A DNA stretch of 64,000 nt from Bryum argenteum (taxonomy: Eukaryota > Streptophyta > Bryopsida > Bryales > Bryaceae), in contig CM073331.1 in NCBI GenBank assembly GCA_037043015.1, positions 5,777,305-5,841,304 on the forward strand, given 5' to 3'. The notes under the pieces were generated by a model that did no database searches, was not told where the DNA came from, and saw only the letters and a list, made by a program, of their open reading frames with translations. The position numbers were made by a program, and so were the translations under genes. Shown here piece by piece: positions 9,884 to 54,671 of the stretch (its first letter is position 1; each line of letters starts with the position of its first letter).

Positions 9884-10011
9884 TCTCCAGACTCCGTCAT
9901 GGATGAAAATTATCGACGATTCATTCAAAGGCGACATCCATCCACACGTAAAACCTGTGAAGAGGATCCTTACACAGCACGTGTGAACAGGACCCAGAGG
10001 GGCACCCCTCA

Positions 10012-10421
10012 TTAAAGCCCTTCCAGCGACAATATCATAGTCCGTCAGTTACGAACTAACCAAATCACTAACTCACGAACTTACGCTTTTTTTGAAAACT
10101 GCACTAAGCGGGACACTCCACTCTATTTCCAAGGCAAGCCTGTCACTGTCAGTTAGCCTAACCAATTCCGAGCCCCTAACCATTTCCACTTGTACAGTGC
10201 ACCCCGCCCCCGCGCTTTCCATCCATCAGTTTTCTAACAATCCGATCATTCTAATGCGAGTCGTGGGAGGCGACGGGAGGTTCAGCTGAAGGTGGTCGTT
10301 AGGACGGGAGAAAATTAGAGGTTAATCGGAATTAGTGTTGCTGCTGGAGTGGCGGTCCCGGATTGCGATGGTGTTTGAGGAGCTTTGTGGTGTTTAGGGT
10401 TTATAGGGATTGGAGGAGTCA
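10012..10421 (+). promoter_or_regulatory. Upstream region and probable 5' UTR of the PIGN gene
   Basis: This is the interval between the end of the repeat-rich flank and the PIGN start codon. It is less AT-rich than the sequence before it. I can see no convincing TATA box or named element, so promoter position is an inference from gene order only. Confidence 0.4.
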
Positions 10422-13400
10422 ATGGAGCGGCGAGAAGTGGCGCTGGTGGTGCTGGGATTGGTGCTTCACCCTCTGTACATGCTCAGCATTTTTGATATCT
10501 ACTTCAAGTCGCCAATTGTGAGCGGCATGGAGCCGGAGCCGCTCGGCATTCCGCCTCCTGCTAATCGCCTCGTACTCTTTGTAGGTACTAACAATTTGCT
10601 GCATTCACGAATTGGTCGAAATCAAGCTCCTCTCACTGGAATGAAATTGTGTCACCTGATTTGTAACCGTCCTGAAGAAGTGCAGCAGAGAACAGTACTT
10701 TGCATTCAAATTTGATTCATTTCAGTAATGTTATATTTACATTTTGAACAAATTTTGAACATTTTGAACAAAGCACATAACGTAAGAAACAAATGAGCAG
10801 GAAGGGTACCAATTGCTGCCGAGAGATTCATTAACCTGTTGAGTTCATTCCAATATGAAATCAGCTCACTTAATTATTACTCTGTAGAATCTGTCTCCTA
10901 AATAAGGAAATTTATGTCTGGAAGAAATTAAGATTTTGGCATAGTGATATTTAAAACCAACGTCTCTGTTCAACTTAACAACCAGGTGTGAGCTTGTGCT
11001 CATTCTTGAGCTGAAGTTAATGTGTCATGTACTATGGTTCGTGACCAAATTTCAATATTCTCACGATGCATTAAGATATGAGGTTTTAAAATGCAATGCA
11101 TGTTGCTTCTGATGGCACCTACGTATCAACGAGAGGTTATTACTTACAAATGCCCCTTCAAACAAACCTTTCCACCAAAAATATACAAAACATTGTCATT
11201 CTGTTCGAACCTCAACATTCCTGTTATGAAATATGGATTGTTTTTCAAAGATAAAACAATTCCTTATGAAAGCTCAAGTTGTTGGTATAGGTCTCTCTGC
11301 ACTAAAGGTCTGAGCAATGGAGATGAGCAGATGATATTAATATAGAAGTCTTTGGAAGCTTCAGTACACAAGTCGTCCATTGGCCATCTGGAATGGAGAG
11401 ATTGTTTTGGTTGTACATACTTATAAGAGTAGAACTGATCTGTCTCGCTAACGAATGCCTTCTTTTTGAGAGAATCGCATAGGGGGTTAATAGTTGCTAG
11501 CATAAGTTTGCACAAAGTCATGTGCACTATATCGATTCATTCTAGTTCGTCGGTGGAGTATCAATCACATACTGTTTAAAGCTCAAAATTGTTTGTTTAT
11601 CCCTGTTTTGGTGGAATGCGTTGTAACACAGCGGATGGCATGCGAGCTGACAAGTTTTTCGAGATGGGCAAAGACGGCAAACCTCGAGCCCCATTTCTGC
11701 ACAACATCATGCACAACAAAGGTCGATGGGGCGTTTCTCATGCAAGGCCACCGACTGAATCCCGCCCCTGTCATGTTGCCATTATTGCTGGCTTCTATGA
11801 AGACCCTAGTGCTATCACCATAGGTAAATAAATAGTCATGGATATCTATCTGCAATTCTGCTAATTCTTAAGTGAAACCATGGTCGATTTAATGTCTATG
11901 TTGCTATCTTCTGGTACCTTTCTGGATTGAATAATATGGAAGCGGCCACTGCATTCAGGTTGGAAAGCGAATCCGGTGAAGTTTGATTCAGTTTTCAATA
12001 GGAGCAGACACACTGTTGCATTTGGAGCTCCAGACATCGTTCCCATCTTTTGTGGGGCGCTGCCTCATACTTACACTGATTCTTACCCTCCCGCGTTTGA
12101 AGATTTTGCTACTGGTAACGTACAGTATCATTCTTTCTCAATCTTGTGTATTTGTAGTTTAGCCAACTATGGGTGGACCTCATTGTTGGACCTCGTTGCA
12201 TGTGTACCCTGAAAGTACTTTGGGATGACATTGTTACTACTAAATAGGTAGGAACTAGTATAGGAACTGGGAACTAGTATAAAATCCATCATAAGGGGGG
12301 TCAGTAGTCTTACATCATCAGTGTTGTGTCATGTGGGCATATAAATGGAAGGATATGGCTCTAGGACATTCTTGCCAAACAAGCAAGAAGTTGCTGTTCT
12401 TCTTGTTACATGTCCATTGTATTTCAGGAACAGGTTTCTAGGAACCTGTGTCAATTTCAACATGATAAGGATCTATAATCCTACACCACTACTGTTATGT
12501 TTCGAGGGCATAAATATCAATGAATAGATAGACCAATAGCACACCTAACTCACGCAATGCTCCAAACAAACCTGGAGTTCTCCTTCTTCTTGAGCCAATC
12601 CATCTTTTCTATGTTGCTGCGGATATTCTAGAAGTTGCTTGTATGTTGCTTGCTATGCAAATGTAAATGAATTGATCTATCTCTGCTCTGTTGTTACGGT
12701 TGTTCTTGAACATGCTTGCTATTTGCAATCAAGCACATTGGTTAATTATCACAATAATATGAATCTTCACAGATGCATCTTTTCTTGATGAATGGGCGTT
12801 CGAGCGACTGAAGATTTTTCTGGACGAGTCTAAGACAGACGCCCAGATTCAGAAAGACATCAAAGGCGATGGACTGATAGTGTTCCTGCACTTACAGGGG
12901 TGCGACACAAACGGGGCTGACCACCTGCCCTACTCGGACATATACCTGAACAACATCAACCTTGTGGATCGAGGCGTTGAAAGCACTGTGAAGCTCATTG
13001 AGGAGTATTTTCCTGATGGAGGAACCGCATATCTTTTCACAGCTGATCATGGCATAAGCAACAAAGGTATATTCATATCTTTACATTGAAACTTAATGCC
13101 TTTAATATGTTTATATTCTGCAAAAGTGGCGCTTTTAGGGGGTTAGAATTTAGTAAAAAGGAAGGGTCATATCATAGGGATGATGATATTACAGAGAAGG
13201 AATTGGAATTGGTGCACTTTAATGCCATGGGAAGTGCCACTTTGGAAGCGTAACCAAACAGGCCACCAAACTGGCACGTTGGGACGAGATGGCAGTCTTG
13301 ATATGTCAATTTGGCAATTAAAATATTGCCATTTGGATGGAATCGTTCATATGGTCATTCTTAAGTTACTTGTTAATTCTCCTCTTACTGGTTATTAGTG

Positions 13401-16400
13401 TCCTCGTTTCTCAGGCAGACATGGCGATGGAGATCCACAGAACACAGAGACTCCTATTGTTGTTTGGGGCTCAGGTGTTCGTGGACCTGAAAAGGCTGCC
13501 CCGGAGGATGCTGTTGATGATGGTGTGGCCTTTGTTGATCAACATACTCATCATGAGAAAACGCCGGACTCTTGGGGACTGAAGAATGTTGAGCGCACGG
13601 ATATCAACCAGGGCGATATTGCTCCCCTTATGGTAATTTATAATCTGCATCTTGTGATAAATAAATCCTTGGATAAATTCTTGTTGCTTTTTTTGCTTTT
13701 TGTTGATTTACGTGTTTGTATGTGTTTTTGGCAGTCGACACTTTTAGGACTTCCGATTCCACTCAATTCAGTTGGTGCGTTGCCAGTCGACTTTTTGGCT
13801 CTTGGCAAGGTTAGCTTTCCTGACATCACCTGCAACATGGCTAACTCCTCAGATGCACGAGATTAGGCTGCGAAAGGCACAGATAGTGTACGGTATTGAT
13901 GATTATAATTTGGAGTCTGTATAGCTCACAGTCATCTGTGAGGTGGAGTTCAAATTCCATGTTGATGTGGTGCCACCACATTATGGTAGGTTCTTGGATT
14001 GGACCATATGTTATGGTACCCCTCGAAGGCCTTCATGGATGTCATGTCTGTTGTTTCTTTTAGTCACTATTAACGCCGTCTTGCTACAATACATAATCGG
14101 CCCTGATTCGGCCTCTGGTTTCAAAGGGTTAATAAGTGAACATACAATGTAACATAAGTAACCTAATCCCAATCAACTTGTTGTTCATAGGTGCAAAATT
14201 GGCACTCTATTTCGTTTGTGCTCTTTCCTTCTGTAGTTTATATCTCAAGTTGGCTCTTGCTGTGAGATGAAGGGTAGTTCAACCAAGTTCTTGTATCTGC
14301 AGAAAATGCAAGCAATGGCCATGTTTGGTAACGCGAAGCAAGTGCTCAATCAGGCCCTCCGCAAGTCACGTATCCAACCTGTTTTCATATTTCCAGATGC
14401 TTCTGCAGATAACTAAAATTGACGATCGTCTTCTTTCGACCGTTGCTATGATAATTGGTTGTAAGGGCCATATCAAGTTGAATAGTGTTCATTGTTCCCT
14501 AACCATGGCACAGAGCTGAAACAAGCATCGACGATATTCTTCAAGCCATTTGTGCGACTAGTGGGGTACAAGACCACACTGAATCACATAGAGCAATTGA
14601 TATCTGGCGGCCAGTTTGAGTCAGCCTTACTGTCTTCTCAGGAGCTAATCAAGCTTGCTCTTGAAGGCCTGCAATACTTCCAGACATACGACTGGTCATT
14701 TCTCATGTCTACAGTCATCATGGGTTACTTGGGCTGGATGGTGCATGTGTTCCTACACATCTTGCAGTCTTATACCAACTTCCCTCTCTATTCTCGTAAG
14801 AAGAATCGACGTAAGCAAAGCAATGAAATCGGAGATGGAATGGTAAGGGCTACTTTTGCCCGTCACATATCTGCCATCTCTTGAAATCTGGTCCGAATGA
14901 TAATATAACTCCTGAAGACAATTGTCGATCTAGCATATACTTTGTGTTTGGATTGAAACAAATTAGCTTGATCAAGTTAATTCCAAAGCTGGTGATCAGG
15001 AGATCCGCTACCTGGGCTCGTCAATAGTGTTCTTATGAATCTGTCATCTCTTTAGGTGGAGGTCTTGCGAGCCTCATCAAGGTTTTCCGATCTGAAGAAA
15101 CTTGTTAACATACTGTGCACTTTGTGTTTTATCTGGATATCGCTTAGCATGATCAAGTTAGACGCTGAATAGTGTAGCTTCAATATAGTAAGCCTATTGA
15201 TCTACTGATTGGCAATTTAATGCTGCAGGTACGGCTGGCAGGAGGATTACTGATGGGAGCATGTTCTCTGCTACTTTTGATTCAAAGAGCTCCATTCTTA
15301 TATCATGCGTACCTTGGGGTAGCTGTCTTTTTGTGGACAGAGTTTTTTGCAAACACCGCACTGCTGCAAAATCTTGTTAGCGTGATTCAATCTACACAAG
15401 TGTCCTGGCTACCGCAAGTCCTTATCACTGCGTTGACATCTTTCCTTGTCCTGGAGCTTCTGGTAAGAACTTAGCTTTTCGTATAGAAGTACATTGTTGG
15501 GCATTAGACTTTTGGTGTTAGCATGTCTCGGATCTTTGTACATAAGCTGGTGTTATTGTGTTTTGCAGGTGGCAAGCTTTTTCCGCAGAGCGGTTTACAC
15601 AGTGATATTCTTAGTTGCGGGAGTTGTAGGCGCAGTTGTGGTCTCCTGCAATATGCGGAACCTATCGATGGTCCCTGCATTTGTGTGGATTTCCTGTTGG
15701 TTTCTATCAGTATTTACTTTGATGCCAACGAAAATTAGTGACAATCCTGCTCTCGTGTGAGTGCTCTTGTACATCATTTGCTCCTAAAGCTTGTGTATAT
15801 CTTTATACTATCGAATCAGTATTCCAATATGAGTACTCTGATACATCTTTTTCATGCTTTGAAGGAGTAGAAGTGGGCATTTTTTTTGCTTGAGAGACTC
15901 ACAGTCATCGTCTGCAGGGTAGGAAGCGGAATGGTGGTGATTGCGGTTGCCATTTTCGGTCGGTGGATTGACTACAACTACTGGTCTGTTCCTTCCTTGA
16001 AGCTAAAATTTTGTGGACCTTATTCTAAGCTGGATAAATCATGGTCTCTATTTTCTATTCAGGTAATCTATCTAAGTTAATTAATATGTCGTAATGAGAC
16101 ATTATGTAACATGATTGCTAAGAGTAAGGTAGACATACCCTTTATCGAGCAGTTCCCAACGCTGTATAGTTGGGCCTATACGAAATGTTTTCATTTCTAT
16201 CACCAAGTTGATAGATGAATATGTGTAATATAGGTGTTGATTTTAGATCATGAATGGCATTTGAAAGTTACAACATCTATATTTGGAAACTGTTTATTCT
16301 TGTTGATCTATATTGCAATCTCTATGTCAAATGACTGCTCTCATTTGGACTAGATCTATAACCTATGTATCCATTGAACATTTTCACAATCACTCGTTTC

Positions 16401-41158: not shown

Positions 41159-43099
41159 TCAATGTAGGTACAGTCGAGAACCTGCTACAATGGAAACTTG
41201 AGAAACTTGGGAAACCTGATATAGGTTTTGAGTTTCACATGCATCCCCATTGATCTGGTTGCGCCAATCGTATGTAGGAAATATTTGTGTACCGAGCATG
41301 TGGAATCCAGTCGACGAAGAAGGCGATGCTTCATGTGATACGTTGATTATCAAGGACGTCTCGTCTTCGGAGTTAGAGTCTGTCCTCTGCCCGTAGAAGG
41401 GCTCTAAGAGATCGTCGATGTCATCCAGGGGCTCTAAGGTATCGTCGATGTCATCCAGGGGCTCTAAGGTATCGTCGATGCATATGTCACCGAGGTTGAT
41501 AATTCCGTCCAGCCCGCTTTCGTCACTTTCTCGAGAATCTGATCGAGGAAGCCCGCTTTCGTCACTTTCTCGAGAATCTGATCGAGAAAGCCCGCTTTCG
41601 TCACTTTCTCGAGAATCTGATCGAGAAAACCCGGGTGATGCAATTGTTTCCTGCAAGGAACACTAGCAACACCATAAACTCGGAGGTGAGTTGCTTGCCC
41701 TATCGAACACTAGTGCAGAACCATGGTTAAATCATTGGGTTGAAATACTTCAGTAGTATTTCGACATAGTGTTTCAAGCATACCCTATGTTTACCGGTGT
41801 TTCGATCTTGTTGGAACCCTTTCAAACACGATCGGCAATACTAGTGTATAATATCAGTTGAAACACTAAAAACTGGTCGAAAAGTTGTCTCCACACAGTC
41901 ACCATAGCGTTTCGATAGATTTGTCAACCATGATTTTGCACCAGTGGCGCGCGAGGACTACAAGAAAAGTTATCGCAGAATTCATGGGGTGGGACACTTA
42001 CTGCAGTTAGGACTGGTGATGAGGGTGGGCTGGTGGAGGGGTGCGGCGCGTTATCCGCCAGCCACTTGGCTCGCTCCGTGACAGCTTTGCGCTTCTCTTT
42101 CCCTTCCAAACCCTCCAACGATGGTTGTGTCTTCAGGAGCTCCGGACTGTCAGGAAAATTATAAGAACCTTTATGATAGTAGTACATCACGGCGTCAACA
42201 GCGCGAGCAGCTTTGTAATCGGACTTGTATTCGCCGAACGACGCCTTGTTCTTCATCTTCTCCTCCTCTGCCGGCAGCCGCGTCTCTGCCGACCACGTAC
42301 CCCGTTCCGGGCGATATCGAACTCCCTTGTACTCGGACTTGCAGTTGCCCTTCTGTTCCCTCGGGGGTTGAACTGCCTTGCGTTGCTTCTCTGGGGGAGG
42401 CGGTAGCTCAGGCGGCACCTGAGGCAAAGCACCATACAATCTTCGCTTCGACCCGCATCTAGGGCGCCATCCTAGCTGAGTATCGACAATATCGAGTTGC
42501 ACCTGCCAGACCACGGCTGTTGGCACTATAGGACCCTTCCAGATGATACCGGGACTGTCATCGTCCTTTTTGATCAGGTACTCAAAAAGATACTTGCTCC
42601 ATTGGTCACACTCGTACTCCTTCCTCTCAAACCCCGGGAGTTTCTTCAACGAAGTCGCACCGATATGGTACCCCATCGACTTCTCTGCGTTGCAGATCTC
42701 GAGACTACTCAATCGAAACGAATGACTACAGGTGGACGGAGTGGCCTCCGGGTACTCCACATCTTTGAACAGAAATTGATCTGGCTTTGGACAATCTCTG
42801 CCACAAATATCTCTGCCACTATTACTCATTATTTGAAGATGTTGGTACACGTCCCCCAAACTCCGACGCTCATCGTCGGGTTGCCAGTCGAGATTCTCCT
42901 GCGTCGTCCCCCACGACGGCAACTTCGTCAAGAGCTCATGGATCACGGCCTCGTCCTGCGAGATCACTGCGGCGCATACAATCACTCTCTGGACACGAAA
43001 CCGATGTTCTTCAAAGCTTGCATTCCAGATGTACTGATTCAATTGAGGAAGAAAAATCTTGCTCAGATGGTCACCGTCGATGCGGGTGGAATCGGACAT
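41159..43099 (-). CDS. AP2/ERF-like domain protein with an unrecognised N-terminal region
   Basis: Probable nuclear DNA-binding protein. Minus-strand exons: 43099-42002 and 41650-41159, total 1,590 bases, 529 aa, GT-AG intron between codons. Residues 1 to about 230 (MSDSTRIDGDHLSK...) match no family I know. Then come a proline and basic linker (PELPPPPEKQ) and an AP2-like domain at about 255-320: EYKGVRYRPERGTWSAETR, FGEYKSDYKAARAVDAV, GSYNFPDSPELL. A short insertion (EEEKMKN) lies between the strands. After it, KGKEK-type basic sequence leads to the intron. Exon 2 encodes three 13-residue Ser/Asp/Glu repeats and then acidic Asp-Ile repeats. The AP2 exon is paralogous to that at 51.6-52.0 kb and shares its downstream intron position and phase. 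A further 3' exon cannot be excluded. Confidence 0.75.
41401..41480. repeat. 30-base tandem repeat in exon 2 of the AP2 gene
   Basis: The plus-strand unit GCTCTAAGGTATCGTCGATG plus TCATCCAGGG occurs from 41401, 41431 and 41461, the last partial. On the coding strand it encodes the acidic decapeptide DDTLEPLDDI. Unit length keeps frame. Confidence 0.9.
41512..41636. repeat. 39-base tandem repeat in exon 2 of the AP2 gene
   Basis: Three copies start at 41512, 41551 and 41590 and encode SRSDSRESDESGL on the minus strand, with a single Ser to Pro change. The acidic serine-rich unit looks like a casein kinase 2 target region. Length is a multiple of three. Confidence 0.9.
41708..41946. mobile_element. 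Inverted-repeat MITE inside the AP2 gene intron
   Basis: Left end CACTAGTGCAGAACCATGGTT and right end AACCATGATTTTGCACCAGTG are inverted repeats with a few mismatches. CACTAGTGCAAAACC-type ends also occur near 43150-43345. The flanking three bases do not match (GAA and GCG), so the class is uncertain; the CACTA start suggests an old CACTA-type MITE. It occupies most of the 351-base intron. Confidence 0.65.
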
Positions 43100-44085
43100 G
43101 GTCGATGAATGTCTGGCACAATAGCACTCAAACCCTCAGATTCTATAAGCACGAGTGCAAAACCATCGGTTGAAACACTGTCGAGACTTCCAAACACCAC
43201 AAACAAAATCTTGCAACCACTCGGATTCTTTTGTGTACTAGTGCAAAACCAACGCTTGAAGAAACACGACGGAGACTTTTCAAACCCTTTAACCACTCAG
43301 ATTCTTTACTCACTAGTGCATGCAAAACCACGGCTGAAACACTGAGAACTTTCAAATACTAGTGGATGGAGAGTGCTTGAACCGCTTTTTTTGCACTTCT
43401 GATGCTCTCCTTTCGATTCTTGCCTTAAAAAGACCTGCAGTTACTTGTTCGAATCGAGAGAACAGAAGGCAAAATGCCGACAGTCGGTAGCTCTAGGGTG
43501 AAAAGGGGCCCCACACTGCTGATGAGGTCGTTCAGGCTACACGGCTCTGAAAGATCCATAACTGAGAATAGTCAGGGAGCTTGGACAAGTTCAGCCGTAT
43601 GATCGATCCAAGGGCTCAAGCTATTGATTCTCTATTGTCTTTTTTATTGATTGGAAGGACATGAATAATTTGACTTCCGCGTAGGACTGTACTCGACATA
43701 CTGTTCGTGCACAACCCACAACGAAGCTTCCAGCGAAGGTTCCGATGAGGGTGTGTGTGTAGCAGCCGGACACTAATTTCATCCGGGTTCTCCCTTGGAA
43801 TTTCCAAATATGGAGGGGCCTAATAAAAGGGTGCCCTTATAAAGGGCCCCGTAATATATTATAGGTTCCCATATTTTAGAACTTATGGTCTCTTGTCCAG
43901 TGTGCTTTTTTGAGAACGGATAGTGCTTACTGAAATGAAAGACCAGTATTTCTCATTAGAAATGGGATTTTCCCAATAGAGAGGTGATTTTCACAATAGA
44001 GAGGTGAGTGATTCTTCATATTCTTCCTTTGATAGTGGCCCATGATTTTTCAAAGTCATCTGTAGTGAAATCTTGGGGACCAATC
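43100..44085. other. Upstream region of the AP2 gene, with repeat units
   Basis: At about 43150, 43238 and 43312 there are three units related to CACTAGTGCAAAACCA followed by GGTTGAAACACT. They match the termini of the MITE in the gene's own intron. This suggests tandem or nested MITE ends in the promoter. No exon seen. Confidence 0.5.
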
Positions 44086-47319: not shown

Positions 47320-47657
47320 ATCTCTGGCATCAAAAGTCAGTCGCACTTTGCACAATTCATTGCACAGTCCAATGCACAATCGATTGAGATAAAATTGGCA
47401 ACGTATAAAGGCATCTGCAAACCTTACCATTTAAACCTTAAAGACTAACCCCAATCGATCAGAAGCAAAGCCAGTCCAATTCTTGACGAGGAATTGAATT
47501 CGGCTGAAAGGGCTCGTTAGCTTGTAGCAGGCGGCAGCAGCAGGCAGCGACACCGAGGAGCGTGCCGTTCGAAGCTGACTGGATGCGACTTGGACAATCT
47601 TCAACAATCTTTGGATGAATATGTTTTCTTTCTCAGTTTCTGTACTTCGGTCAAGTT
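47320..47657. other. Gene-free stretch
   Basis: I see no exon, RNA gene or repeat that I can support here. Confidence 0.5.
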
Positions 47658-47790
47658 TTGGATTTTATTGTGTTTATCTCAATTGCACTTTTGAAGCGCA
47701 GCCTACGGTCTTGCCTTCGAAGGAAGCGGCAATCGCACACGTAAGAGTTCAATCCCACATGTGTTTAATTCCTTTTATACAATGTGATTA
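47658..47790 (+). pseudogene. Fragment of exon 3 of the SNM1-like nuclease gene
   Basis: Matches parent 38133-38250 across the exon 3 to intron 3 boundary: TGTGTTTATCT, TTGCACTTTTG, AGCGCAGCCTA, TCGAAGGAAGCGGCAATCG, GTAAGAGTTCAAT and CCTTTTATACAATGTGAT. The codon for the metal-binding Asp (GAT in YLDCTFG) reads AAT here, giving Asn. It lies after the exon 5 copy, so the order is scrambled relative to the parent. Not functional. Confidence 0.85.
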
Positions 47791-48010
47791 ATATGTATGG
47801 GGAGTTCCTAGTTCTCATCCTTTGTTCCTCGTTCTCCATCTCCCAACTCCTCTTCTTTGTTTCCATCATTTGTTCCCGGTCTTCATCAATTGTTCCTAGT
47901 TTCCATCATTCGTTCTTGGTTCTCATTATTTGTTCATCGTTCCCATCCTCCGTTCCTACTTCCTATCCTATATTACTTGTTCGTAGCACCCATCCGATAA
48001 CCTCTTGATC
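47790..48010. repeat. Pyrimidine-rich imperfect tandem repeat
   Basis: Variants of TTGTTCCTAGTTCTCATC recur about eight times with spacing near 20-25 bases (GTTCCTCGTTCTCC, TTTGTTCCCGGTCTTCATC, ATTGTTCCTAGTTTCC, ATTCGTTCTTGGTTCTC). Strong strand asymmetry (C and T). Not coding. Confidence 0.65.
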
Positions 48011-49946
48011 TCCTCTTCACTCCTTTGCTCCCATTTTCATGTTCCCTATTCCTTGTCCCTTTGACTCTTCGTTACATTATTGGGATCAGATTATAGACTC
48101 ATAACAATAAAATATCACTTATGAAAACTCTTCAAAATCCTGAAAACTCTTCATGCCATGTATACATGACCAAATAATGATGGTGACCATGACCATGATG
48201 TCATGCAACTACAAGCACTACAAGCATGTAGTCTGAAAGATGATCCGACAATTACATTCTCAAAACGTTGAGCTTGAAAGATTTTGATGGAGTTTTTAAT
48301 CAATGGAGTTTAGAATCATCTAGGAAAGCGCTGGGCTTTTCGGGGTGCAAGGTTAACTTGTTGCAATCGAGCATATCTTGATGTGTGTGAGAAAATAGTA
48401 TAATATAGCCAGTGTTGGTAGGGTGAAGTTCCATTGGGAGAATACATGAACTTGTCGTATTCACGGATCGAGTCAACAACTTCTTCACCTTTTGTAATGG
48501 CCGTGTTGACTCGCCGCACCGAAGATCAACCCCCTCCTCTATCAAACGCCGCACTTACTATTGTAATCGTACTCAAGTGACACGATCCCCACATCCCCTT
48601 TCCGTCCTAGATTCCGTTTCAGTCCGTGGACGACTTTGAAGCTGGCGGATCACCAAGGTGTTAGGTGTTCCAGTGCAGACTATCGTAATTTCTAGATTGG
48701 CTAGATGGTCGGTAGCGTTTAGGGTTTCTAGCTCCAGACATGATGCGTGGGCCTTCATCGCCAGTGAATTTCATGGCCACAGTTTGAGAAGAAGAGCGGC
48801 GGTTTGAGAAGAGGAGCTTTGATCCTTTTTCGAGGAAAGAGGCGTTACCGACTATTTCGAGCCAGATTGATGCTCTCCAGAGAATTTCGTGATCATTTCA
48901 ACAACTTGATTACGGTTTAGAGATTACTCAGTGGGGTTTTCATTACCAGTACTGTTGTGATTTTGCATTCAAGGTGGGGTTCGATGAAACAGAGCTGCAG
49001 CATCTTCTATATCAGTACGGCGCGGCTACATACTGAGGTACAGATTTCAACCTTTGAAGCAGGAAATCTAATCTTCTTTGGTTGAGGTTCCTTCAATATT
49101 AAATCTTAGAATATGTCCTTGTTTTATTTTTCATTTGCCTGAATCATCGGCGGGGCTCACCTCTTCAAGACGTCGCATTCTACTCGTATGTTGTGCAAGA
49201 GGGGAACTTAGCAGACTCTCACATGTAGACAAATCGTAGAGTAGGACATTATGCGTATTACCCTGTTTTAGAGCTTTAGCTAAAGTGTGAGATCGACAAG
49301 ATTCACAATTTAACTGGTGAGTTACGATTTGTGCACGTTTAGATCTGGATTGTTTACGAAAGATTAAGTTTTGGCTTTACTTACAGCAGATGATTGAATC
49401 AACATGATGATTACTTTCTATGTTGGGCCTTAATTAGGTTTTTTGACGCATGTGAATGTCGTGCACATTGAGTGCTTGCGTAACCTTGGCGTTTGCACGG
49501 ACTGTTTGATTCATGTTTTAGGGGTTGTCTGGCTTTGTGGTGTGGTGTGAGAGGTGGTTTCAGAGCAATTCTCATGGGAGTTAGTTGTATGTGGGGTTTA
49601 GGAAATTAAAGTTTGTTTGGATTTGGGAAATGTCAAAGATTGTGTCGTGTGATCGGTGGCTTTGAGAATTTTAATGTGCGTTGTTGGGAATAAATTTATC
49701 TGATTGTCTTGTAATGTTTCCAATGTGTGCAGAATGTGCTGTAACCATGTTCAAGAAGTAGAGCTTGAGACGAATATTATATTTTGCATGTGAAGATCAA
49801 CCATACTATTCCAGTGATGATCACAAGTGGTGTATAGGAGCCTTGTGCCCTTGTGTATAGAGTCTGTGTTGCATGAGCTGTGTTGATAAGTTCACAAGGC
49901 GGAGGTTTGGAAGCCGAAATAAGTTTCCTTCAGCGGTATTGCAGTC
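48011..49946 (+). promoter_or_regulatory. Upstream region and probable long leader of the kinase-AP2-receiver gene
   Basis: No gene is visible; small open frames on both strands have no family match. The kinase gene start at 49947 is preceded by several in-frame and out-of-frame stops, so the coding region does not extend upstream without an intron. A 5' UTR intron is possible, but I cannot place it. No named promoter element is seen. Confidence 0.4.
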
Positions 49947-52900
49947 ATGGCTAGCATGGAGTCTTACCTTCGCGATGCAGCGGGGAGCATGGAGGCTATA
50001 AATGAGATGTTTCCTTTCCTAAAATTCAACATTAAGCAATGCACCTATTTAGGTGACAAATTTGGTGTGGTCATTGATAGCGCAAGGTTGTTCTTGGAGG
50101 AATCAAGAAATAAAGAGGTCGTCGGAACTACTTCAAGAGAAGACAACACCGATTTTGTTAAGACCTTCGAGGTGCTAGTGGTATTGGGAAAGCAGATTGA
50201 GAGCTTTGTCGAAGGTTGCTGCGAAACAAAATGGATCCAAGCTGCAATGGTGTTAACAAACATGTCGGAGTATGTTTCATCTCTAGGTTTCAGTCTGTAT
50301 CTGTGCAAGGTCGCGTTTAAGAAGGATAAGGCGGCTTTCGAGAGCCATACAATGGATGAAGTTGATGGCATGAAGAAATGTGATGCAGAGGGTGTAAAAG
50401 CGGAAGCATCTATGGATGCCGAGGACCTGATCGAGAAAGTGACAGTGGCACTGAATGAATTACAAGGAGAGGATCGAGATTTAGCCACTTATCTACTTCA
50501 AAGACTTTTGGAGATTAAGCGTACTCCGAGCTCTGGAAGTGGAACCTATTTGAGCCAGTTGTTTGCTTGGCTAAAGTCTGGAAAGCAAGTAGGAAGAGGT
50601 GCTTCAGCCACTGTATACGAGGCGATGTGGCTTGGAACACGGGTTGCAAGGAAGACATTTGAAGGACCTGAGAACGTGGAGTTTGACAAGGAAGTTAAGA
50701 CCTTAGCACGATTATGTCATCCCAATATCACATCCATGTTTTGTTGTACAAAAAACAAGCGAAATTGTTCCATCATCATGGAGCTGATGGATGGAAATCT
50801 TTGTCAACTAATCAATGAAAGGTGGGGCGATGATGGCGAGTGGCGTCCATTTCCCATAATGGAAGCAGTGAACATAATGCTTCAAATAGGTGAAGGAGTG
50901 AATTATCTCCACAATGAAGGCATTGTGCACCGTGACTTGAAGTCTGGGAACATTCTCTACAAGAGCGTAAAGGTGAAGAATGTTGCAACTGAGTATGTTC
51001 ATGTCAAAGTGGCTGACTTTGGAATATCCAAGGAAAGGGATACGAATACCACATATTCAGATCTAACTTGCAATACTGGAACCAACAGGTGGATGCCACC
51101 TGAAGTCATTAGATTGTTGGATGGAAATCAAGAAGTCTTGTGTTCGAGTACTGTTCAGTTGCCAAAATATCCATTCAAGCTTGACACTTACAGTTTTGGA
51201 CTCGTGTGCTACGAGATCCTCAGTGGCAACCTACCTTTTTGGGAATACGAGAATGCGATGGAGGTAAAGAGGAGGATATTGAAAAAGGAGCGTCCAAGAT
51301 TACCAAGTGAATGCCCTCTTATGTTGAAGGCTTTGATTGAGAAATGTTGGAGTCATGAGCCTGAATTGCGACCAACGTTCGGCGTGATCTGTAGGGAGCT
51401 GACGTATATAAAATACTTGTTAATGACAGGTAATGATAACCAAACACAGGATAGCCTGGTTATTGTTGATGTTGCAGCCTTCAATGTCCATAAGTTGCCA
51501 TGTGTTGTTTCAATATGATTGAATTTCTTGACACACGAGTGTGAATTTGTAACAGGTAGATCAGTGAACCAACACGTGGATGATAGTCGAACGCGAGAGA
51601 ATATTGCTGACAGCAAAGATATGGCGGGAGCGGGGCTATCCTTTCTGGACATAGCAGGAAGTTCGTTCTACACGGCGCCGGAGAAGCAATGCAAGGGAGT
51701 TCAATCCCCGCGCATTTCCAAAAACTTCAAGTACAGGGGAGTGCTGAACTATCAGAGTGGTCACGAAGGTCATAGAAAATGGGCGGCACGGACGCGGGTG
51801 CTGAACAGAGATGTGTTGCTCGGCACCTTCACGTCCGAATATGAAGCTGCTCTAGCGATCGACATCGCGAGATTCTACTACGGCAAGGTCTCTTTTAACT
51901 TTCCTGACACTCCCGAGCTCCTGAAGGAACTCCCCTCGTTGAAGGGTTTGGAAGGAGAAGAGAAGCTCAAAGCTGTCAAGGACCTCGCCAAGCGGATGGC
52001 AACCGATCCCTCCACCAACCACCCTCCACACCACTCTATAAGTGCTGCAGTAAGTGTCCAACGCAATTATCTGTCTCCCTTTCTTATGGTCCTCTCGTCA
52101 TTACTGGTTATATCAGGGTTGAACCATTTGTTGAGACGCTTCGGAGACAGTATTGTAATTAGTTTTTACACTAGAGTTCCATTCAAACTGCCTCGAGGCT
52201 CCTTGAAAGTATGCAAACCTCACTAATTCCTTCATTAGTTCTAGTCCATGACTTTTATCAGGAAAAACTCTGCCAAGAGGGGTTTGTATTCTCATCTTGC
52301 CTCATGGGCAGCACGTCAGGTTGCATGGAGCGAGGGCTGGGATAGAAGCGCTCTGAATCGAAGCGGTCTACGAAGAACTTCCAGTGGCCCTCCTCGCATC
52401 GATAGCTTGATGATGGCCGATTTGGATCAGTCGAAGAGTGTACCAAGCCTTCATTCGACGCCCCCTGTAGTTGACAAGAAACTTCCTGCCCTTTTATTGG
52501 CAGAAGACAACAAGGTAAGTTCCGCATCACCACAGTCGGTCACTTCCTGTTGTTGTGAAAGTAGCTCGGTTACCAGTTTAAATGTTCCTTTGGAATAATT
52601 TGAAAGTGTAGTATCATTGTACTTGAACCTCACAATCCAACGATGTGTGTGCATTTGCGAAGGTTAATGTTATGGTCGCCTTATCGATGCTCAAGAAACT
52701 TGGGTTATCAGCCGATGTTGCGTACAATGGAATGGAGGCGATCAAAGCGCTGCAAGCAAAGGAATACGATCTGGTATACCTCCTTCATAATTCATGCTGA
52801 TTTTTGTTTATCCCTTCCGAAATTCAACCATCTAGCCGATCTATCTTGCCATATGCTACATGGACCATGTTTGAGGATGATTTTGGGTGTTTTGAGATCT

Positions 52901-53300
52901 GATGTTGGTTCGTCTTTGGCAGGTGTTGATGGATATATGCATGCCAGTGTTGGACGGGTTAGAGGTGACAAGACGGATTCGTCGTTACGAGAGCTTAGGC
53001 TACTGGGACGAGGAAAGCACTCTGACACCATCCGATCGAAACTATTCAGGATCACCAGGTGGCGTGGAGGATATCTATACTCCAGTGAAGCCTTTCTGCA
53101 AACAGGCACGGCCAGCTACCGACAAGGTGATGAAACGGATACCCATCATTGCCATGACTGCCAATGCACTCTGCGACTGCGAAAGGCAATGCTCTGCGAC
53201 TGGAATGGACAGCTTCATGACCAAGCCCGTGACATTCAAAAAACTCAAAGATGTGCTCTCTCTACATCTTCCTCCCAAATCCTCGCTTCCATCCCCTTGA
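49947..53300 (+). CDS. Protein kinase - AP2/ERF - response-regulator receiver fusion protein
   Basis: Five exons: 49947-51429, 51556-52049, 52320-52514, 52663-52773 and 52923-53300, total 2,661 bases, 886 aa. Introns are GT-AG and frame is kept throughout. Residues 1-190 are helical, like the leader of some plant kinases. The kinase domain (about 210-490) has GRGASATV, the Lys in VARKTF, HRDLKSGN, ADFGISK, MPPE and DTYSFGL, so it should be active. The AP2 domain (about 540-615) reads FKYRGVLNY, KWAARTRV, LLGTFTSEYEAALAID, VSFNFPDTPELL. After a Ser-rich linker, the receiver (about 710-880) keeps AEDNK, the phospho-acceptor Asp in VLMDICMP, AMTAN and TKPV, and resembles AHK5. The AP2 to receiver junction depends on the acceptor at 52319, so that join is less certain than the kinase to AP2 join. 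Role is unknown; it may link phosphorylation or phosphorelay to gene control. Confidence 0.75.
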
Positions 53301-54471
53301 TATAACCCTACCTGTACCTATACATGCTCTTTCATGGAGCTTGGAAGTTTCGGAGCTTCGAATGACAGCGGCCTTGGAGAGATAAGCTTCTCTCTTGGCC
53401 ATGTGCTATTGACCTAGGATCTGATGAGGTCTATTGTAGACCATTTTGAACTGTAGGTGAGGAAGAGAGTATAATCCCATGCATTTGATAGCCATACTTG
53501 TGCAGAGAGAGAGAGGGAGGGAGGAGGGAGTTCCTTTACGAACTGATACTAACAGAAGTTGTGTAACATTGAACAGAGTACTGTGCTCAGTCTCTGTTTT
53601 CTGGTTATCTGGTTATCTGGGTGCATCTCTGTAGATAATTCTTTTGATCTAAGTTAATACGGAGTGTTTGAGGCAATTAAAATGAGTCCTCTCTTTCTTT
53701 CTTTTTGAGGTGCCATTCTTTCGCCCTTGTGTGGATGTTATCAGGAGGAATATCTCAAAAAGCCATGCACCTCGGAAATAATTGGGTCCCCACTGTTTAG
53801 GAAATAGCACATGTTTTGCTCTAGTGAAGGATTGGAAGTCATAGGGGAATTTCAATATAAGGTAACTTGTTTGTAACTCTTTTGTAACTCTTTTGTAAGT
53901 AAACTTTTTTGTAAGTAAACTCTTTTGTCATCGTCCCCATTGCTCTTCTAGGGTATATGGTCTGGTATAATTATGATTAGTGGGGTCACCTAAAACACCC
54001 ACAAAATTGAATTATGAGATTTTAGATAAATTAGCTCATTGGGTAGGGTAGTGGTCTAGGATTTTAATTTTGGCAAATTTGGGAATTGAAAGCCATAGGT
54101 GTAAATAAAAATTGCACACTCTAAAATGTTGTACATTGGTGTATACGAATTTGATTTTGGAATTTTGAATGGATCTCGTGGACTCGTGGTTGGCATGTCG
54201 CTAGTGTGTGGTTTCTGGTCTTGTGCGGTTTTTGAGCATCATACCATGGCATGATGAAATTTAACCATTAGACGTAGGTAGTAGATGTAGCCTTGTAATG
54301 TAATAAATAATGACTGGTTCAATATTGATTAATACATAAATGATTAGTTCAATTTATCTATACATTAATACGTACCTGCACATGTTCCTTTGACACGTTC
54401 GACCTTGTAATATCACCCTTACCACCTCTATATTATCACCCCTCTTTCCTTCGTATTATTGCACTACTAGA
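53301..54471. other. 3' flank and intergenic DNA
   Basis: Probable 3' UTR of the receiver-domain gene, with a GA-rich patch near 53506-53528, then intergenic DNA. A short tandem array of TTTGTAACTC and TTTGTAAGTAAACT lies at about 53867-53932. Nothing else seen. Confidence 0.5.
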
Positions 54472-54671
54472 ATTTGACCCCATTTGCTACGTTTGTGATT
54501 TCATAAAAGACACGTTTGGGGAGTAGCTTAAACCAATACATTTTATCTCATTTTTGATGAAACGTAGCTTCTCAAACTCCATTGTAGCAAAAACGTGCAA
54601 GAACGTAGTTTAAGCTACTCCAAGAGACGTGGTCTTTCATGAAAACACAAACGTAGCAAATGGTAGTAGTG
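54472..54671. mobile_element. CACTA-type MITE, 200 bases
   Basis: Ends CACTACTAGAATTTGACCCC and ATGGTAGTAGTG are inverted, with further pairing of CATTTGCTACGTTTGTG and CACAAACGTAGCAAATG. Flanking TTG on both sides (54469-54471 and 54672-54674) is a perfect 3-base target duplication, as expected for the CACTA group. The body also pairs (AGTAGCTTAAAC with TAGTTTAAGCTACT). No transposase. Confidence 0.88.

Follow-up and report, generated by a model that had tools for sequence, protein, structure and literature searches.

A chimeric moss gene joining an MLKL-type kinase, a diverged AP2-like piece, and an HK5-derived receiver

How does a single moss gene come to combine a protein kinase, an AP2/ERF-like domain, and a two-component receiver, and what could the encoded protein do? 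The question is raised by a gene on the forward strand of a 64,000-nucleotide stretch of the Bryum argenteum genome (GCA_037043015.1, contig CM073331.1, positions 5,777,305 to 5,841,304), here called the window, which corresponds to C11:5777305-5841304 of the genome assembly examined (258.8 Mb, 25 contigs). A preliminary description of the window had proposed that the three domains join in one frame of 886 codons through GT-AG introns.

Gene model and origin of the chimera

The rebuilt gene model agreed with the proposed frame in both its start and its end. The gene runs on the + strand from an ATG at 49947 to 53300 (stop codon at 53298-53300) as a single open frame of 886 codons, with five exons and four introns of 126, 270, 148, and 149 nt (phases 1, 0, 0, and 0), all of the GT-AG type. 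A kinase exon (49947-51429) is followed by a divergent AP2 exon (51556-52049) and by three receiver exons (52320-52514, 52663-52773, and 52923-53300), and the kinase, AP2, and receiver motifs named earlier are present in the sequence. Since each part is homologous to other sequences of the same genome, chance is excluded as an explanation of the three-domain gene.

We consider it nearly certain that the gene is a chimera, in which a duplicated MLKL-type kinase gene, already bearing a captured, diverged AP2, has been fused within an intron to recently copied 3' sequence of the neighbouring histidine kinase gene HK5. Exons at C11:5713471-5714449 on the minus strand match the receiver and its linker at 94-99% identity. 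The parent HK5 (AHK5-type) gene lies ~115 kb from the window gene, and its locus appears complete, as tblastn with the HK5 protein of Physcomitrium patens aligns, in gapped pieces, residues 1-1079 of 1089. At the DNA level, window positions 47336-52181 are 90.9% identical to L050, the closest copy and itself a kinase-AP2 gene, and positions 52172-53745 are 96.0% identical to HK5. Alignment places the junction at 52168-52183, with sequence like L050 to the left and like the HK5 3' end to the right. The region common with L050 includes 47336-49946 upstream of the gene, holding the 5' untranslated region and presumably the promoter, and an HK5-derived 3' flank extends from 53301 to ~53837, where the homology stops. 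A simple insertion of an HK5 fragment into a kinase-AP2 gene was rejected, as the sequence past 53837 does not resume L050.

The junction is held in intron 2 (52050-52319, phase 0), between the AP2 gene's own donor (52050; GCA/GTAAGT, the slash marking the splice site) and the own acceptor of HK5 (52320; CAG/GTT). As donor and acceptor are both of phase 0, the AP2 and HK5 exons combine in frame, and an unused HK5 exon remnant inside the intron (52172-52211) is skipped on splicing. The GTAAGT donor is kept in L050, L051, L012, and L013, with GTGAGT at that site in L014, and the P. patens HK5 protein (P0002) is continuous over the exon-3 boundary (SLK/GLWKENG). An alternative in which exon 3 starts from 52245 (Model A, 911 aa) has 25 more residues ahead of exon 3 and otherwise equals the 886-codon model; it was rejected, since the acceptor it uses is not that of HK5. 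The Pfam scan, the PDB sequence search, and both protein-database searches used Model A, and residue numbers beyond 659 are those of that model. A frame in which the exon-2 donor is read through to 52211 (Model B, 940 aa) is also open and is possible, but requires the GTAAGT donor to be ignored.

Both junction sequences occur elsewhere on the contig, as they would if an assembly artefact had fused two genes. However, the chimera is several percent divergent from each parent (over the whole left side, and in introns and flank on the right), which makes it a separate copy rather than a misjoin of the parents, and we regard an artefact as very improbable.

Two further features were observed in the vicinity. 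The region downstream of HK5 (L048 1-3747) is 72-85% identical, in pieces, to window positions 9912-14369 and represents another local duplication. Shortly after the end of the HK5 copy, an inverted repeat of ~185 bp (54480-54663, 75% self-complementary) resembles a miniature inverted-repeat transposable element.

Kinase, receiver, and AP2-like parts

Exon 1 comprises 494 complete codons, and its AlphaFold2 model (mean predicted local distance difference test score, pLDDT, of 84.7) shows a four-helix bundle with helices within residues 2-124, brace helices at 136-191, and a kinase at ~203-493. A profile of 41 aligned sequences, chosen by us from loci and matches, matched the PDB chains 6lba (positions 20-496, E=7.9e-77) and 6ka4 (positions 20-494, E=1.5e-71), which we take to be Arabidopsis MLKLs, their PDB names being merely 'Protein kinase family protein' and 'F22L4.1 protein'. 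Based on this profile match and the predicted helices, exon 1 is assigned as MLKL-type, with a predicted four-helix N-terminus, a brace, and a kinase with intact motifs. The kinase matches PF00069 (E=5.1e-45) and carries K236, E249, HRDLKSGN (328-335), and DFG (357-359); the catalytic Lys K236, the HRD Asp D330, and the DFG Asp D357 are invariant in 41 of 41 aligned sequences. The catalytic residues are thus kept, unlike in the aligned 6lba chain, and the pseudokinase character of the Arabidopsis MLKLs is not found here. Fold searches with the exon-1 model gave kinases alone, with no MLKL chain among the 50 best matches of either search, neither of which probed the bundle, and a single-sequence search with residues 1-199 gave no MLKL chain, the best match being Linocin-M18 (E=0.0035).

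The protein-database searches scored the ~8000 best candidates among proteins of 0.55-1.75 times the query length; residues 1-660 gave 471 matches and residues 500-911 gave 2674, of which the best 120 each were listed. Among those listed for residues 1-660, the closest kinases from Ceratodon purpureus were P0124 (57% identity) and P0126 (58%). Between the five close copies described below, the ratio of nonsynonymous to synonymous divergence (dN/dS) in the kinase exon was 0.22-0.38, and a three-copy likelihood analysis gave a ratio (omega) of 0.32 (p=1.7e-6 vs 1). Synonymous divergence between L051 and the window exon 1 is uneven, with 0.20 in the N-terminal part and 0.06 in the kinase part, a pattern which suggests gene conversion between copies.

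The receiver matches PF00072 (E=1.2e-19), and its best PDB sequence match, over the receiver, is the Arabidopsis histidine kinase 5 chain 4euk (E=6.6e-38); P. patens HK5, at 72% identity, was the best of the matches listed for residues 500-911. Exon 3 encodes the HK5 linker and the start of the receiver (LLLAEDNK), exon 4 continues the receiver, and exon 5 carries the phospho-acceptor Asp (LMDICMP), Thr (AMTAN), Lys (TKPV), and the stop codon, so that the acidic pair, phospho-acceptor Asp, Thr/Ser, and Lys typical of AHK5 are all kept. Compared with the parent HK5, 6 of 684 sites differ in the receiver coding exons (0 of 111 in exon 4), five of them synonymous and one nonsynonymous, and 17 of 405 sites differ in the introns and 21 of 434 in the 3' flank; synonymous, intron, and flank divergence amounts to 3-5%. 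The lone nonsynonymous change lies on the chimera side, the parent, P. patens, and Ceratodon all having Ser. With equal rates assumed on both branches and 524 nonsynonymous sites, an unconstrained chimera is expected to show ~8.5 (from a synonymous divergence of 0.033) to 11.5 (from the ~4.4% of introns and flank) nonsynonymous changes, and the shortfall to the single one seen has a Poisson P of 0.0019 to 0.00013. The main alternative, gene conversion confined to the exons, seems unlikely because introns lie between them. The receiver has thus been constrained at the protein level since copying, so this piece is probably translated.

Constraint on the receiver alone would also fit a split into a kinase-AP2 protein and a short orphan response regulator beginning within the HK5-derived exons, where in-frame ATGs precede the receiver (IDSLMMADLDQ). 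This is quite improbable in our view, as splicing between the native phase-0 donor and acceptor would yield one frame across the junction and a new promoter is not needed. We consider it likely that the fused three-domain protein is translated.

Exon 2 is preceded by a phase-1 intron (51430-51555; CAG/GTAATG...GTAACAG/G) and encodes a linker similar to NQHVDDSRTRENIAD, found in five of five close copies, and then the AP2 piece with its core at ~51729-51905. Pfam did not report this piece, whether as part of the 911-aa model (E<=1) or in isolation (E<=10), and it is not among the 74 places in the genome that match PF00847. In the PDB, a profile built from it and related pieces of this genome, 19 in all, found WRI1 (8.8e-14), ERF096 (7.2e-13), and AtERF1 (8.9e-11). 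Foldseek searches with a structure model of moderate confidence (mean pLDDT 69.1) returned AP2 chains at ranks 1-8, including 7et4 as the best match (E=3.7e-4, root-mean-square deviation 7.0) and 1gcc (E=0.058, deviation 1.9). By homology and predicted fold, the exon-2 piece is AP2-like and lies below the Pfam PF00847 cut-off. Seven residues of ERF96 (R16, R19, R21, W23, R31, R39, and W41) are given in passages of PMC7593309 as contacting DNA or needed for binding; by-eye mapping, uncertain around an insertion, indicates that the window AP2 keeps two of them (R16 and R31) and L012 four. DNA binding looks like the weakest part of what the preliminary description proposed.

The AP2 exon of the three AP2-bearing fusions gave an omega of 1.88 over 126 codons (p=0.017, uncorrected and one of eight tests). 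The other AP2 sets gave p=0.057, 0.028, 0.12 (L012/L013, omega 0.63), 0.026, and 0.041, and the linker 0.91, the eighth test being that of the kinase exon. An omega near or above 1 could mean relaxation, and together with the young age of the chimera (the 3-5% divergence from HK5) and a region rich in duplications it would fit a non-adaptive rearrangement, transcribed little or not at all and bound to decay. Against this, the frame and splice sites are intact, the kinase has an omega of 0.32, and the nonsynonymous changes in the receiver are too few for a neutral copy; we rate this explanation as rather unlikely.

Differing C-terminal domains in sister genes

The N-terminal domain has 21 matches in the genome, five of them at 84-100% identity. 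In the four sisters of the window gene, exon 1 is 86-97% identical, and intron 1 and the start of exon 2 are common to all five genes; the intron-1 donor is CAG/GTAA in three sisters and CAT/GTAATG in L057. What follows differs. The window gene carries the AP2 and HK5 receiver payload, the sisters at C11:5901617 and C11:5913545 an AP2 payload, the sister at C11:5854914 an OST-HTH/LOTUS payload (PF12872, E=9.6e-6, over the cut-off), and the sister at C8:5482709 a CDPK-type kinase payload (PF00069, E=6.7e-69). The five close copies, three of them with AP2, thus amount to four kinds of payload, and from these sequences the C-terminal part of the family (AP2, LOTUS, or CDPK-type kinase) is seemingly replaceable.

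The CDPK-type payload looks inactive, because VRGFGLA stands where CPK3 has ATDFGLS and the DFG Asp is replaced by Gly in this alignment. When L057 is read with L075 (C8:5482709-5488500), exon 2 encodes the CDPK-type kinase domain with this change of DFG to GFG. In L056/L031 read with L074 (C11:5854914-5860500), a PEKQxKxVQ stretch like that of the AP2 genes stands just before LOTUS, as if LOTUS had replaced AP2.

Relatives of the payloads were found elsewhere in the genome, for LOTUS at C2:2829112 (79%) and for the CDPK-type kinase at C5:3227563 and C5:3211063 (75 and 77%), these loci being far from all matches of the N-terminal domain. AP2 relatives lie at C11:5922572 and in the window itself at 41924-43135 on the minus strand, where a stand-alone gene with a 403-codon open frame shows 51% identity to the AP2 payload and a sub-threshold PF00847 match (E=8.1e-5). 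The N-terminal half of this stand-alone gene has no assignment; its relatives are at C11:5922572 and C2:13273755, and in both of these a second, similar open frame (..LQExxASPG..) follows farther along. Six more distant members of the kinase family were read ~2.5 kb past the kinase, and the scanned pieces of four gave DUF7025, GIL1/IRKI, a second kinase, and a kinase fragment below the cut-off.

Among the matches listed, 55 of the 240 fetched public proteins have the N-terminal domain, and 18 of these 55 also carry a non-kinase Pfam domain: GIL1/IRKI (4), DUF7025 (3), NB-ARC (3), PF05049 (3), PF00139 (2), Hsp70 (2), and phytochrome (1). The names beyond GIL1/IRKI and DUF7025 (NB-ARC, PF00139 as lectin, Hsp70, phytochrome) are those we presume from the accessions. 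Ceratodon P0132, P0134, and P0143 are lectin-type and phytochrome proteins that end in a similar N-terminal domain with kinase, so fusion partners occur on both sides of the module.

The three-domain set, which the preliminary description had not recognized from any described protein, was likewise not encountered in the database: at E<=1e-5, none of the 240 listed proteins matched AP2 and none matched kinase and receiver together, and the AP2 piece alone gave 2088 candidates with none at E<=0.1. Among the titles and abstract beginnings listed by searches of open-licence PMC literature, there was no kinase-AP2-receiver protein, no moss kinase fusion protein, and no payload exchange on a moss MLKL-type core. 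Kinase fusion proteins, integrated decoys, and kinase-NLRs of mosses are known kinds, and the kinase-AP2-receiver set is one that was not met in these searches.

Candidate function and significance

By analogy, the window gene resembles cereal resistance genes thought to carry bait domains. Like the kinase fusion proteins of Triticeae (Sr43, Lr9, Pm4, and Pm13), it combines an apparently functional kinase with another domain, and its fusion likewise came about by ectopic joining of separate genes, for which the junction was located, as were the parent HK5 gene and a sister of the kinase-AP2 gene on the other side. It differs from them in coming from a moss, in its MLKL-type core, and in payloads which vary among sisters; it is also known from sequence alone, whereas theirs are linked to resistance. 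With plant MLKLs (Arabidopsis 6lba and 6ka4, and wheat Pm13) it shares the four-helix N-terminus, the brace, and the kinase, with a profile match over nearly all of exon 1, but it adds the C-terminal AP2 and receiver, and its catalytic motifs are intact unlike those of the 6lba chain, Pm13 being also of the active type. In moss kinase-NLRs (Pkn-NLR/PNL), represented by Ceratodon P0147, P0155, and P0156, a related N-terminal domain and kinase precede NB-ARC, but the Pfam scan of the window gene gave no PF00931 at E<=1. The receiver and upstream linker were copied from the 3' end of the moss HK5, with the histidine kinase and ATPase parts of HK5/AHK5 outside the copied stretch. Ceratodon P0143, presumably the published PHYCER/CerpuPHY1, has a related N-terminal domain (47%) and kinase (57%), but there the module is C-terminal to phytochrome.

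According to passages of PMC10260397, the Sr43 kinase fusion is inferred to stem from ectopic recombination, with an integrated decoy as the proposed role of the domain it gained. PMC10951266 describes Pm13 as an MLKL with an active-type kinase. For mosses, PMC11218826 reports kinase-NLRs together with an expanded set of NLR-integrated domains, as well as a cell-death response, modest and variable, to a kinase domain from P. patens.

The explanation which we hold to be somewhat more probable than all others together is that the window gene encodes a kinase fusion protein with integrated decoys. The decoy mechanism itself falls a little short of an even chance. By analogy with the Sr43 model and Pm13, the payload would act as bait and the kinase as switch, with the four-helix domain as executor. 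Both the AP2 and the receiver would serve as baits or docking sites for pathogen effectors aimed at ERF-type factors or at the His-Asp phosphorelay, and a bait that is bound or modified would alter the linked kinase. The kinase would then phosphorylate itself or partners and release the four-helix N-terminal domain, which could oligomerise and cause local cell death or defence. A further possibility is that the receiver docks histidine-containing phosphotransfer (HPt) proteins and thereby senses or dampens the phosphorelay.

The preliminary description had instead suggested a genuine signal integrator, with phosphorelay input from HPt to the receiver Asp, Ser/Thr phosphorylation, and DNA binding in one chain. 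The three-domain gene model and the receiver, whose motifs are kept and constrained after copying, stand in its favor, as do the intact kinase motifs and the AP2 fold, predicted to be retained. The DNA-binding end fares less well, as the AP2 lies under Pfam detection with two of seven ERF96 contacts by manual mapping, its omega is above 1 while the kinase is constrained, and unrelated payloads occupy the same place in sister genes. Because the chimera is recent, its C-terminal part replaceable, and its AP2 poor in DNA-contact residues, an integrated chain from input through kinase to transcription factor is less likely than captured domains acting as bait or docking modules, and we regard it as unlikely.

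Several points weigh against the decoy explanation. A receiver that is constrained and nearly unchanged is as compatible with a working receiver as with a bait. The AP2 omega is not significant once corrected for eight tests, and the AP2 copies may include independent captures (L011 is nearer to L012 than to L010 in sequence) or have undergone gene conversion. In L050, the closest copy, a stop precedes the AP2 donor, and this gene therefore seems to end after AP2. In the six distant members the downstream domain is adjacent to the kinase at the DNA level, and two of the six, outside the domain scan, showed no clear one. For Pm13, the authors of PMC10951266 call it unclear whether its fused N-terminal domain executes or perceives.

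As a tentative and broader proposal, mosses may have NLR-independent intracellular immune receptors in which an active-kinase, MLKL-type executor carries exchanged host decoys (AP2, HK5 receiver, LOTUS, or CDPK kinase), the HK5 receiver being a bait for phosphorelay effectors, and which arose independently of the cereal kinase fusion proteins. Kinase fusions with integrated decoys appear unique to Triticeae according to passages of PMC10260397. If the explanation favored here is true, kinase fusion receptors with integrated decoys would have evolved in mosses also, on a different core, and their payloads would name host pathways attacked by moss pathogens, the phosphorelay among them. Function aside, the locus presents a kinase core with differing C-terminal domains among sister genes. 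A single contig holds the breakpoint of the most recent capture together with its HK5 parent and a sister of the kinase-AP2 parent, which gives direct access to how, and how fast, such genes are assembled.

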